From positions 186,001-250,000 of the forward strand of contig NZ_BJLQ01000003.1 in the NCBI RefSeq assembly GCF_006538725.1: DNA of 64,000 nucleotides, given 5' to 3'. The notes beneath the pieces are model-generated. The model saw only the letters and a list, made by a program, of their open reading frames with translations. It had not been told where the DNA came from and did no database searches. Below are positions 44,999 to 47,434 of the stretch, in pieces. Positions within the stretch are counted from its first letter, which is position 1. Every line of letters begins with the position of its first letter. The stretch comes from Cellulomonas gelida (GTDB taxonomy: Bacteria > Actinomycetota > Actinomycetes > Actinomycetales > Cellulomonadaceae). Both the position numbers and the translations under genes were made by a program.

Positions 44999-45583
44999 TC
45001 AGATGTAGATGGCCGGGTCGTCGATCTCGGCGTCGAACGGCGCGGCGACGGGGCGCAGGCGGACCTGGGCAGGGACGCCCACCGCGATCGCGCCCGCGGG
45101 CACGTCGTGGATCACGACCGCGTTCGCGCCGACCTGCACGTCGTCGCCGATCCAGACGGGCCCGAGGATCTTGGCGCCCGCGCCCACCACGACGTTGTCG
45201 CCGAGCGTGGGGTGACGCTTGCCCTTGCGCATGGCCTTGCCGCCGAGCGTCGAGCCGTGGAACAGGACGACGTCGTCCCCGACCTCCGCGGTCTCGCCGA
45301 TCACCACGCCCATCCCGTGGTCGATGAAGAGCCGACGCCCGAGCCGCGCGCCGGGGTGGATCTCGATGCCCGTCAACGCCCGCACGAGCTGCGACAGCAG
45401 GCGCGCCGGGAGACGCAGCGACGGCTCACGCCACATCGCGTGCGCGACGCGGTAGGTCCAGACGGCGTGCACGCCCGGGTAGGCGAGGGCGACCTCGAGC
45501 GCCGAGCGGGCCGCGGGGTCGCGACGGCGCGCGGCCTCGAGGTCCTCGCGGAACGTGGCGACGAAGTGCTGCAGCGAAGGCAT
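44999..45583 (-). CDS. cysE: Serine O-acetyltransferase
   Basis: A 194-residue cytoplasmic enzyme that makes O-acetylserine, the precursor used by CysK. An N-terminal helical part (residues 1-60) is followed by the left-handed parallel beta-helix of hexapeptide repeats: [20 protein letters not shown] (catalytic His), [42 protein letters not shown] and [18 protein letters not shown]. The short form without an extended N terminus is usual in actinobacteria. ATG 45583 was chosen because the upstream extension is Pro/Arg-rich. It follows cysK on the same strand, separated by a strong hairpin. Confidence 0.94.
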
Positions 45584-45624
45584 GGGACCTGGCTCTCGGG
45601 GGACGAGGGGGTGAGCGGGACGGT

Positions 45625-45657
45625 CGCGCCCCGGCCGCACGCGGCGGCCGGGGCGCG
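45625..45657 (-). terminator. Hairpin between cysK and cysE
   Basis: CGCGCCCCGGCCGC and its exact complement form a 14-bp stem with a 5-base loop in the 80-bp gap after cysK. It may end part of the cysK transcript and so set a lower level of cysE. Confidence 0.7.
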
Positions 45658-45663
45658 TGCCGC

Positions 45664-46599
45664 TCAGTCGAGCAGGTCGGCGTAGAGGATCGTCGACAGG
45701 TAGCGCTCACCGAACGACGGGATGATCGCGACGATCAGCTTGCCCGCGTTCTCCGGACGCTCCGCGAGCTGCTTCGCGGCGGCGAGCGCGGCACCCGAGG
45801 AGATGCCCACGAGCAGGCCCTCCTCGGCAGCGGCACGGCGAGCGAACGTCACGGCCGTCTCGGCGTCGATGTCGATGACCTCGTCGTACACCGAGGTGTC
45901 GAGGATCTCCGGCACGAAGTTCGCGCCGATGCCCTGGATCTTGTGCGGGCCGGGCTGGCCGCCGTTGAGGATCGGCGACTCGGCGGGCTCGACGGCGACG
46001 ATCGTGACGTCGGGCTTGCGCTCCTTGAGCACCTGTCCGACACCCGTGATGGTGCCGCCCGTGCCGATGCCCGCGACGAGGATGTCGATCTGGCCGTCGG
46101 TGTCGGCCCAGATCTCCTCGGCCGTCGTCTTGCGGTGGATGGCGGGGTTGGCCTCGTTCGCGAACTGGCGGGCCAGGATCGCGCCCGGACGCTCGGCGAC
46201 GATCTCGTTGGCGCGGTTGACCGCACCCTTCATGCCCTCGGAGCCCGGCGTGAGGATGAGCTCGGCACCGAACGCCCGCAGCAGGGCGCGGCGCTCCTTC
46301 GACATGGTCTCCGGCATCGTCAGGACGACGTCGTAGCCGCGCGCGGCGCCGACGAACGCGAGGGCGATGCCCGTGTTGCCCGACGTCGCCTCGACGATCG
46401 TGCCGCCCGGCTTGAGCTCGCCCGACGCCTCGGCCGCGTCGATGATCGCGACACCGATGCGGTCCTTGACCGAGCTGGCCGGGTTGTAGAACTCGAGCTT
46501 GCCGACGACCGTGGCGGGGGCGCCGTCGGTGATCTTGTTGATGCGGACCAGCGGGGTGTTGCCGATGAGCGCGGTCGCGTCGTCGTAGATGCGTGCCAT
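45664..46599 (-). CDS. cysK: Cysteine synthase A (O-acetylserine sulfhydrylase)
   Basis: A 311-residue PLP enzyme that makes cysteine from O-acetylserine and sulfide. IGNTPLVRI, the PLP lysine in [12 protein letters not shown] (K45), the substrate loop [13 protein letters not shown], the phosphate-binding [12 protein letters not shown] and the C-terminal GISSGAAL are all present. ATG 46599 has GAGG five bases upstream. The gene is preceded by a leader region of about 270 bp that encodes a Cys-rich short peptide and can form a long-range stem, so it is probably controlled by cysteine supply. Confidence 0.96.
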
Positions 46600-46668
46600 G
46601 GTTCCTCTTCGGTCGAGCCGACGCGGGTGCGGCGGCGGATGCGGGGGACTTGTCTGACGGGTACGAGC

Positions 46669-46683
46669 GAGAGCGGAGCTCTC
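46669..46683 (-). promoter_or_regulatory. Small hairpin in the cysK leader
   Basis: GAGAGC and GCTCTC form a 6-bp perfect stem with a GGA loop, 70 bp upstream of the cysK start, between the long-range stem and the ribosome-binding site. It may be part of the attenuator's alternative folds. Confidence 0.4.
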
Positions 46684-46733
46684 AGGTGGCTGCGCCGGCG
46701 GTCGACGCCGGGGTGCGGACGGGCCGCCGGGGC

Positions 46734-46797
46734 GAGCGCTGGCGCACAGGACACGCCCACCGGGGAAGGGTGTCGTCGCGCGCGGGAGCCAGCGCTC
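46734..46797 (-). promoter_or_regulatory. Long-range stem in the cysK leader (putative attenuator)
   Basis: GAGCGCTGGC (minus strand, 46797-46788) pairs perfectly over 10 bp with GCCAGCGCTC (46743-46734). The 5' arm begins at the last base of the leader-peptide stop codon, so a ribosome stalled on the Cys codons just before it would cover this arm and stop the stem forming. This is the geometry expected for ribosome-controlled attenuation. Function is inferred. Confidence 0.6.
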
Positions 46798-46868
46798 TAC
46801 CGACAGCGACAACAGGGCGCCACGAAGGCGCGCAGCGAGGAGGCAGGGGCGGACATCCGCTCGCTCAT
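46797..46868 (-). CDS. Cys-codon leader peptide upstream of cysK (23 aa)
   Basis: A 23-residue ORF ending APCCRCR, with three Cys codons (TGT TGT CGC TGT) immediately before CGG and the stop TAG. ATG 46868 has a strong GGAGGAG site four bases upstream, unusual for a chance ORF. It is followed by a 10-bp long-range stem and then cysK about 200 bp later. Short ORFs rich in Cys codons are known cysteine-responsive attenuators in mycobacteria; this looks like a related leader, although here it has a Shine-Dalgarno site rather than a leaderless start. The peptide itself probably has no other role. Confidence 0.7.
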
Positions 46869-46909
46869 GCTCTCCTCCAAGGGCGGTCCGGGGACCGCAG
46901 TCGTTGGTG

Positions 46910-46938
46910 ACCGTAGCGTCAACGCCATACCGGGCGCA
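46910..46938 (-). promoter_or_regulatory. Candidate promoter of the cysK leader
   Basis: On the minus strand TTGCGC and TACGGT (46910-46915) are spaced by about 18 bp. Transcription would start near 46903 and give a 5' leader of about 35 nt before the peptide start codon. Confidence 0.45.
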
Positions 46939-46990
46939 AAGGTTCCCGCGCCTCGGACGCAGGTCAGGCGGTCCGGGCCGGCGCACAGCA

Positions 46991-47024
46991 CGACGCCCGC
47001 CCCGGGGTCCCGGGGCGGGCGTCG
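46991..47024 (-). terminator. Hairpin terminator after the lipoprotein gene
   Basis: CGACGCCCGCCCCGG and its exact complement form a 15-bp stem with a 4-base loop, 39 bp beyond the lipoprotein stop and upstream of the cysK leader promoter. It insulates the two units. Confidence 0.82.
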
Positions 47025-47062: not shown

Positions 47063-47434
47063 TCAGGCCTTCTTCTCGGCGGTCAGCGTGATGACGGTGC
47101 CGACGGGGACGACTCCCTCGATCGGGTCCTGGCCCACGACGAGGTACACCGTCTCGGGCTCGGGCGTGATCTCGTTGCCGTCGGCGTCGACGACCTTGGT
47201 CTCGAGCCCGCGCAGACCCAGCGTGTCGATCGCGGTCTGGAGCTGGATGTGCGTGACGTCGAGCACCTCGGCCTCGGTGGGCGCCTCGGTCGCCTCGGGC
47301 GTGGCGGCCGCGCTCGAGGTGGCCTCGGCGGTCGCGGTGGTGTCGGTGGTCGCGTCGTCGGACGAGCAGCCGGCCAGCAGGAGCGTGGCGGCGGCGGCGA
47401 GCGCGACAGCGGTACGAACGGCAGACGACTTCAT
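47063..47434 (-). CDS. Lipoprotein with PASTA-like domain
   Basis: A 123-residue exported lipoprotein. The signal peptide ([23 protein letters not shown]) ends in lipobox LLAGC with acylated Cys23. A Thr/Ala/Glu-rich linker follows (about 24-55). The folded part (about 56-121) reads [26 protein letters not shown] and ends [20 protein letters not shown], the pattern of a single PASTA domain. It may bind cell-wall material; the role is unknown. A TAGGGT -10-like element (47519-47524) lies about 85 bp upstream. Confidence 0.8.

Follow-up and report, generated by a model that had tools for sequence, protein, structure and literature searches.

A cysteine-codon leader ORF and a stop-anchored RNA helix upstream of cysK in Cellulomonas gelida and its relatives: a candidate attenuator

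Introduction

In the 64,000-nucleotide stretch of Cellulomonas gelida DNA analyzed here (referred to as the window), the gene for cysteine synthase A, cysK, is preceded by a short open reading frame (ORF) with Cys codons just before its stop codon and by an inverted repeat that begins within that stop codon, raising the questions of whether this arrangement is fortuitous and, if not, how it might act on cysK. A sequence-only reading of the window had listed the ORF, a GGAGGAG motif, three Cys codons, and a 10-bp stem at the stop, all of which are present at the positions assigned to them, and had proposed a cysteine attenuator in which a ribosome stalled on the Cys codons masks one arm of the stem. 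This article is focused on the conservation of the leader ORF and the stem, the genes that follow them, and the mechanisms by which they might operate.

The Leader ORF, the Stem, and Neighboring Features

On the minus strand, the leader ORF starts at an ATG (46868), ends with the residues CCRCR, and is closed by a TAG at 46799..46797; its Cys codons, at 46814, 46811, and 46805, are all TGT (Table 1). The arms 46797..46788 and 46743..46734 form a perfect 10-bp stem upstream of cysK and cysE. The window contains 994 start/stop pairs spanning 8-60 codons; six of them have at least three Cys in their last five codons, and all six are in-frame starts of one ORF, the cysK leader. TAG closes 2 of the 35 gene-like ORFs of the window and TGT represents 9 of its 110 Cys codons; the cysK leader uses TAG and, for three of three Cys, TGT. 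The folding energy of the 71-nt stem region is -37.7 kcal/mol (z = -3.0), a value equaled by one of 200 shuffles, and unusual stability of the whole 311-nt leader was not found by folding energy (z = -0.56). The covariance models of Rfam release 15 gave no match at E<=5 to positions 46590-47000; across the window they identified six tRNAs. Judged by comparison with relatives, chance is excluded as the origin of a leader ORF and a stop-anchored stem before cysK, given their recurrence in the genus and in five families.

Table 1. Features of the cysK leader region (positions are those of the window)
Feature	Position	Strand	Basis
Leader ORF, 23 codons, stop TAG	46797..46868	-	Sequence and ORF reading; conserved in relatives
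Shine-Dalgarno GGAGGAG of leader ORF	46872..46878	-	Sequence; Shine-Dalgarno-like purine-rich stretches precede many relatives' leader starts
Cys codon TGT at position -2, likely sensor codon	46803..46805	-	TGT in 67/68 distinct leaders, TGC in 1
Stem 5' arm GAGCGCTGGC, first base = G of TAG stop	46788..46797	-	Sequence, covariation
Stem 3' arm GCCAGCGCTC	46734..46743	-	Sequence, covariation; RNAalifold de novo
GCCCC, C-rich tail directly 3' of stem	46729..46733	-	U-tract instead in two lower-GC relatives
cysK, cysteine synthase A, presumed regulated gene	45667..46599	-	TIGR01139, 456.8 bits (cut-off 350.95)
cysE, serine O-acetyltransferase	44999..45583	-	TIGR01172 and NF041874 above cut-off
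Promoter-like site TTTGCG ... TACGGT	46910..46940	-	Spacing conserved in 30 leaders
Variable, largely palindromic hairpin just 5' of cysK ribosome-binding site	46617..46636	-	24 leaders

The cysE gene, for which the profile search used the longer frame 44999-45640, lies 83 nt downstream of cysK and possibly belongs to the same operon. Upstream of the leader, the promoter-like site is spaced as TTTG-N21-TANNGT in 28 of 30 aligned leaders and with N20 in the other two, and its -10 element ends 41 nt before the leader ATG here and 34-86 nt before it across the 30. In some species, this TTTGCG ... TANNGT block, at 46908-46940, comes with a GACGCTAGCGTC palindrome; the block could be a promoter or could additionally be bound by a regulator. 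The hairpin just 5' of the cysK ribosome-binding site varies in sequence yet is largely palindromic in 24 leaders and is followed by a nearly invariant CTCGACCGAAGAGGAACCATG, whose CTC and GAG could also pair across the cysK Shine-Dalgarno sequence. A small lipoprotein-like ORF (47063-47434, minus strand) lies directly upstream of the leader.

Conservation of the End of the Leader ORF

A DNA search of 58 relatives yielded 30 loci. A Cys-ended leader ORF was found in 24 of the 24 loci with cysK located and enough upstream sequence (L001-L016, L018-L024, and L030), a count that excludes L029, with cysK at the contig edge, and L017 and L025-L028, in which the script did not locate cysK; a later motif scan placed the element before cysK in L017 and L025. 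In a set of 80 named CysK loci, an ORF whose last eight codons include two or more Cys lies within 450 nt upstream in 33, and these belong to Cellulomonas, Cellulosimicrobium, Oerskovia, Actinotalea, Demequina, Isoptericola, Pengzhenrongella, Antribacter, Myceligenerans, Georgenia, Xylanimonas, and some MAGs. No such ORF was found at the other 47, including the Arthrobacter, Agromyces, Janibacter, Phycicoccus, and Propioniciclava loci of the set, by a two-Cys criterion that may miss Cys-poorer leaders; at the Promicromonospora locus L053, the motif scan detected the TAG-stem element. Conservation of the ORF, which the sequence-only reading had named as a check, extends to both close and more distant relatives.

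Sixty-eight distinct leaders, chosen for at least two Cys in the last eight codons and not for stop or codon choice, all have Cys at position -2, followed in 67 by Arg or Leu and then by the stop. Within the genus, TGT at -2 and the stop TAG occur in 28 of 28 distinct leaders; among the 40 from outside it, 39 have TGT at -2 (one has TGC) and 37 have TAG (three have TGA). TGT is special to position -2 because at other positions the leaders use both Cys codons, with 47 TGT and 19 TGC in the genus and 43 and 82, respectively, in the others. The leader of L189 has a single Cys, at -2, and the last 15 codons of the L183 leader include just one. The combination of Cys at -2, UAG, and the stem directly before cysK was found in the genus and in the order families f1, f3, f9, f12, and f13.

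Two kinds of variant were observed. The Cellulosimicrobium leaders L034, L044, and L047 extend to ...GCR, terminate in TGA, and lack a good stem anchored at the stop. At L209:1501-1592, before cysK, the Cys codon and the stem are kept and TGG stands in place of UAG, which may reflect a lost stop, a read-through form, or an assembly error.

Covariation of the Stop-Anchored Helix

Among 69 leaders, 63 are distinct sequences with a helix of at least five pairs, two are duplicates, and four lack a helix of at least five pairs at the stop. Alignment A1 comprises 57 of the 63, and the covariance model R1 was built from 45; rows L050, L065, L070, and L135 of A1, misaligned in the 3' arm, were retained, and the A1 sequences were trimmed at a 3' arm picked by pairing, which is a bias. 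Alignment A4 was cut at a fixed length and comprises 23 rows (24 less one duplicate) selected by the motif TGYCNNTAGRGC with cysK downstream; because its rows are motif-selected, no codon counts were taken from it.

In a structure-blind alignment of 30 sequences of the genus, both arms are almost invariant around a loop of variable sequence and length. Beyond the genus, the arms co-vary, as in GAGCGCCGG/CCGGCGCTC, GAGCGCCCGG/CCGGGCGCTC, GAGCGTC/GACGCTC, and GAGCATTG/CAATGCTC. In A1, 92.4% of the cells are paired, compared with 26-44% in slid controls, two-sided changes occur in six of ten pairs, and none of 500 shuffles reached the covariation score; the measure of further pair types is weak, being reached by 37 of 500 shuffles. 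In the untrimmed A4, 90.4% of the cells are paired, compared with 33-47% in slid controls, the covariation score is 0.306, reached by none of 500 shuffles, against at most 0.120, and 18 cells show double changes against a shuffled mean of 4.5. Because the A4 structure slid by -1 shows double changes too, in six pairs and 14 cells, the case from A4 rests on the paired fraction and the covariation score. RNAalifold recovers the helix de novo in both sets. Shuffle tests are inflated by kinship among the sequences, and kinship as the entire cause of the signal is countered by the slid control and by the second set. At the level of aligned sequences, covariation in the set of 57 and again in the set of 23 shows a stop-anchored RNA helix, conserved and coupled to the end of the ORF, which bears out the stem of the sequence-only reading.

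Distribution and Gene Context

Searched against 297 genomes of the order, R1 matched 83 at E<=0.1. The matches at E<=1e-4 lie just upstream of cysK in 42 of 42 cases, 41 of them 31-150 nt upstream on the same strand; the last, in G212, also precedes cysK. The weaker matches, as far as they were read, are a mixture: L174, L176, L179, and L182-L185 are true leaders before cysK, and G058 C1:271363, G059, G073, G075, G211, G258 C16, G171 C13, and G306 were rejected as having no Cys-UAG end before cysK. The 26 matches from a search of family f3 comprise 17 Cys-UAG leaders before cysK, the TGG form of L209, and eight sequences that are not leaders. In the window's family, the wider model R2, from alignment A5 of 70 sequences including two stray matches, matches 110 of 150 genomes at E<=0.05, among them the 17 same-genus genomes listed, a count of matches of which few were read individually. 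The second matches in G843 and G832 are false, the two matches in G788 represent one sequence present on two contigs, and one of two in G827 was read and is true.

In class samples of 394 genomes, R1 matched eight genomes at E<=0.01, namely the source genome and seven others (including G073); none of the seven is a leader before cysK, and six have no cysK-like motif within 900 nt downstream. R2 gave three matches in these samples: the source genome, G058, upstream of its cysK, and G458, rejected as lying at the same place as an earlier rejected R1 match. The accepted matches in the class samples are the source genome alone for R1 and the source genome and G058 for R2. Among the loci read, no gene other than cysK was found behind an accepted element.

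The Tail Following the Stem

The tail was counted in 110 distinct motif-chosen elements, of which 101 have at least eight pairs. GCCCC follows the stem in 54 of these 101, and at least five T occur in the first eight nt in two, both from lower-GC relatives and both before cysK: L206 (GAGCGCCGAG...CTCGGCGCTC, then TTTTTT; z -3.6) and L184 (GAGCATTGA...TCAATGCTC, then TTTTTC; z -3.8). By these features, the helix and U-tract of L206 and L184 are a textbook intrinsic terminator, and the two relatives point to transcription termination, a mode that the sequence-only reading had left unspecified. Nine elements come from loci below 60% GC, with at least five T in two and at least four T in four (first eight nt); among the 92 from GC-richer loci, none has at least four T and 54 have GCCCC, which is also retained at loci of 60-68% GC, in 4 of 11 elements.

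At the source locus, no U-tract terminator was found, the tail being GCCCC. The missing U-tract is not unusual here because U-tailed terminators are not above chance in the 20 kb of the window scanned (2 found, 1.6 expected). Furthermore, hairpin 3' ends without a U-tract are reported for Streptomyces in the available part of PMC8269248. A GC-rich stem without a U-tract as terminator at the source locus is plausible but unproven, the plausibility resting on the lack of a U-tailed excess in the window and on the Streptomyces 3' ends.

Proposed Mechanism and Alternative Explanations

In our moderately confident view, the element is an attenuator by which the ribosome makes expression of cysK, and probably of cysE, respond to cysteine, and the attenuation is probably transcriptional. 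Transcription would begin upstream of the Shine-Dalgarno-led leader ORF, which ends in Cys-Arg/Leu-UAG with the G of UAG as the first hairpin base. When Cys-tRNA is ample, the ribosome would finish the leader and depart, and the hairpin would fold and stop or pause RNA polymerase before cysK. When Cys-tRNA is scarce, the ribosome would halt with the -2 UGU in its A site; as the geometry suggests, its leading edge would then mask the 5' arm to about half its length, the hairpin would be blocked, and the polymerase would continue into cysK. A separate antiterminator helix would not be required, and no antiterminator partner for the 3' arm was seen by eye in the genus alignment.

A ribosome covers mRNA to roughly 15-16 nt past the first base of its P-site codon. 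With a footprint of this general size and the -2 Cys codon in the A site, coverage would reach about six bases into the ten-base arm, and, with the same footprint, a ribosome at the first Cys of CCRC would stop just short of the arm. Of the Cys codons, only the one at -2 has a geometry that fits the masking proposed in the sequence-only reading. Blockage of the hairpin directly by a ribosome stalled at -2 is favored because of this geometry, the constant Cys at -2, and the single-Cys leader L189. In folding predictions, the next ~115 nt lose 11.5 kcal/mol on average when the first six arm bases, those a stalled ribosome would occupy, are omitted. The interpretation given in the sequence-only reading is supported in part overall; its identification of a cysteine leader-peptide attenuator is well supported, given that the ORF and stem are conserved and the stem covaries.

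Several features count against a cysteine-responsive attenuator of this kind: the conserved, non-U GCCCC tail in the source genome; the scarcity of U-tracts even below 60% GC (two of nine elements); the upstream Cys codons, apparently too far back to mask the arm; the leaders without one of the parts (no helix in 4/69, TGA in Cellulosimicrobium, TGG in L209); and the weak covariation measures (further pair types in A1, the -1 slide in A4). One alternative is an explanation by Rho, which would load on the C-rich RNA past the stop once leader translation is over and would be blocked by a stalled ribosome, the stem exposing or placing the Rho site. GCCCC and the C-rich spacer fit Rho, U-tracts are rare, and Rho was suggested for mycobacterial cys leaders in the available part of PMC1262725; however, Rho alone leaves a covarying helix exactly at the stop codon and two U-tract terminators unaccounted for, and this explanation is considered unlikely. 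Translational attenuation of the M. smegmatis type, in which the leader RNA would hide the cysK ribosome-binding site until a ribosome stalled on Cys opens it, is the mode described for poly-Cys leaders of mycobacteria according to what is available of PMC13236596, and the small CTC/GAG pairing overlaps the cysK Shine-Dalgarno region. The stem, however, ends 134 nt 5' of the cysK start (ATG at 46599), and the U-tract after the stem in two relatives speaks against a translational mode. In predicted folding, the cysK Shine-Dalgarno/start region is unpaired at 0.56 with the arm free and at 0.55 with the arm masked (n = 38), masking opens the region in 6 of 38 leaders and closes it in 7 of 38 (>0.05; p = 0.86), and, as far as folding predictions go, this unchanged accessibility speaks against translational sequestration by the stem; the translational mode appears improbable.

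The upstream Cys codons, common and too far back for arm masking, would suit a trp-like scheme of opposite sign, in which a stall there frees the 5' arm, the stem acts as antiterminator, and a ribosome at the stop covers the arm. Such a scheme appears very improbable, as no conserved downstream partner for the freed 3' arm was seen by eye in the genus alignment, upstream Cys codons are not universal (L189 and L183), and the stem itself bears a U-tract in two relatives, against an antiterminator role. That the inverted repeat is a protein site at the DNA level or an mRNA-stability element, with the Cys-rich ORF end incidental, is scarcely credible: the nearly invariant arm sequence within the genus would fit, but covariation, the tight link to the stop codon, the variable arm spacing, and the constant -2 Cys all speak against it.

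Beyond the attenuator reading favored above, we tentatively suggest a minimal form, in which the G of UAG lies in the first hairpin pair, a single UGU at -2 may be the whole sensor, and the ribosome footprint may itself be the antiterminator, in at least five families of the order, with GC-rich lineages using GCCCC for the U-tract; if so, the GCCCC tail would be an undescribed terminator or pause signal. With this element, cysteine attenuators gain a class that is supported by structure and can be searched for, and control of cysK by cysteine is predicted for a broad bacterial group. Furthermore, the U-tailed and GCCCC-tailed forms of one homologous hairpin provide a natural contrast for studying how transcripts end in GC-rich Actinobacteria.

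Comparison With Known Leaders and Terminators

The classical trp, his, and leu attenuators have a leader ORF whose regulatory codons govern a hairpin located downstream. The cysK element resembles these in its regulatory codons and downstream hairpin and, as in amino-acid leader-peptide attenuators, codons for the pathway product lie near the leader end (CCRCR before cysK); it differs in that no second antiterminator helix was identified and the ribosome itself would cover the terminator arm. For mycobacteria, Canestrari et al. in 2020 reportedly described poly-Cys leaderless ORFs acting by sequestration of the downstream ribosome-binding site. The I-shaped, U-lacking terminators of GC-rich bacteria, as presented in the available part of PMC8269248, share with the cysK stem, a putative terminator, a GC-rich stem and the lack of a U-tract.

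Cys leader peptides were predicted by Seliverstov et al. (2005) for the cys operons of Mycobacterium and Propionibacterium acnes and for cbs of Bifidobacterium longum, and in the available part of that survey (PMC1262725) the alignable mycobacterial leaders have no conserved terminator hairpin and Rho is proposed. As far as that part extends, the cysK element shares with these actinobacterial leaders a short ORF that precedes cysteine genes and carries Cys codons close to its stop, and differs from them in its covarying stop-anchored helix, its gene, cysK, and its other lineages; it provides a hairpin of the kind that the survey did not find in its own set. Mycobacterial Cys leader ORFs are leaderless (PMC4633059, available part), and those of M. 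smegmatis act by translation attenuation according to the accessible part of PMC13236596. Ribosome stalling on Cys codons as a sensor of cysteine supply is the feature in common, proposed in the case of the cysK element, which by contrast has a Shine-Dalgarno start and a hairpin beginning in the stop codon. A leaderless start was not found for the cysK leader, in which GGAGGAG precedes the ATG and the promoter-like -10 lies 41 nt upstream. The claim that a Shine-Dalgarno-driven leader is distinct from the mycobacterial type holds, with the Shine-Dalgarno sequence present, the promoter-like site 34-86 nt upstream, and the mycobacterial ORFs leaderless in what is available of PMC4633059.

In family f4 (L230-L240), 11 of 18 cbs/cysK-like loci have short leaders ending in CCCR, such as MTFISCCCR, which are apparently leaderless, starting right after promoter-like sequence, and lack a stop-anchored stem by eye; many are then followed by a shared GACGCATA-like motif. 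By these features, the CCCR leaders are a different type of cysteine leader from the cysK element. In the open-licence PMC papers searched, a Shine-Dalgarno-led cysK leader with a stop-anchored hairpin was not found. Cys leader peptides are known in Actinobacteria, and the Shine-Dalgarno-led form with a stop-anchored hairpin before cysK is new.
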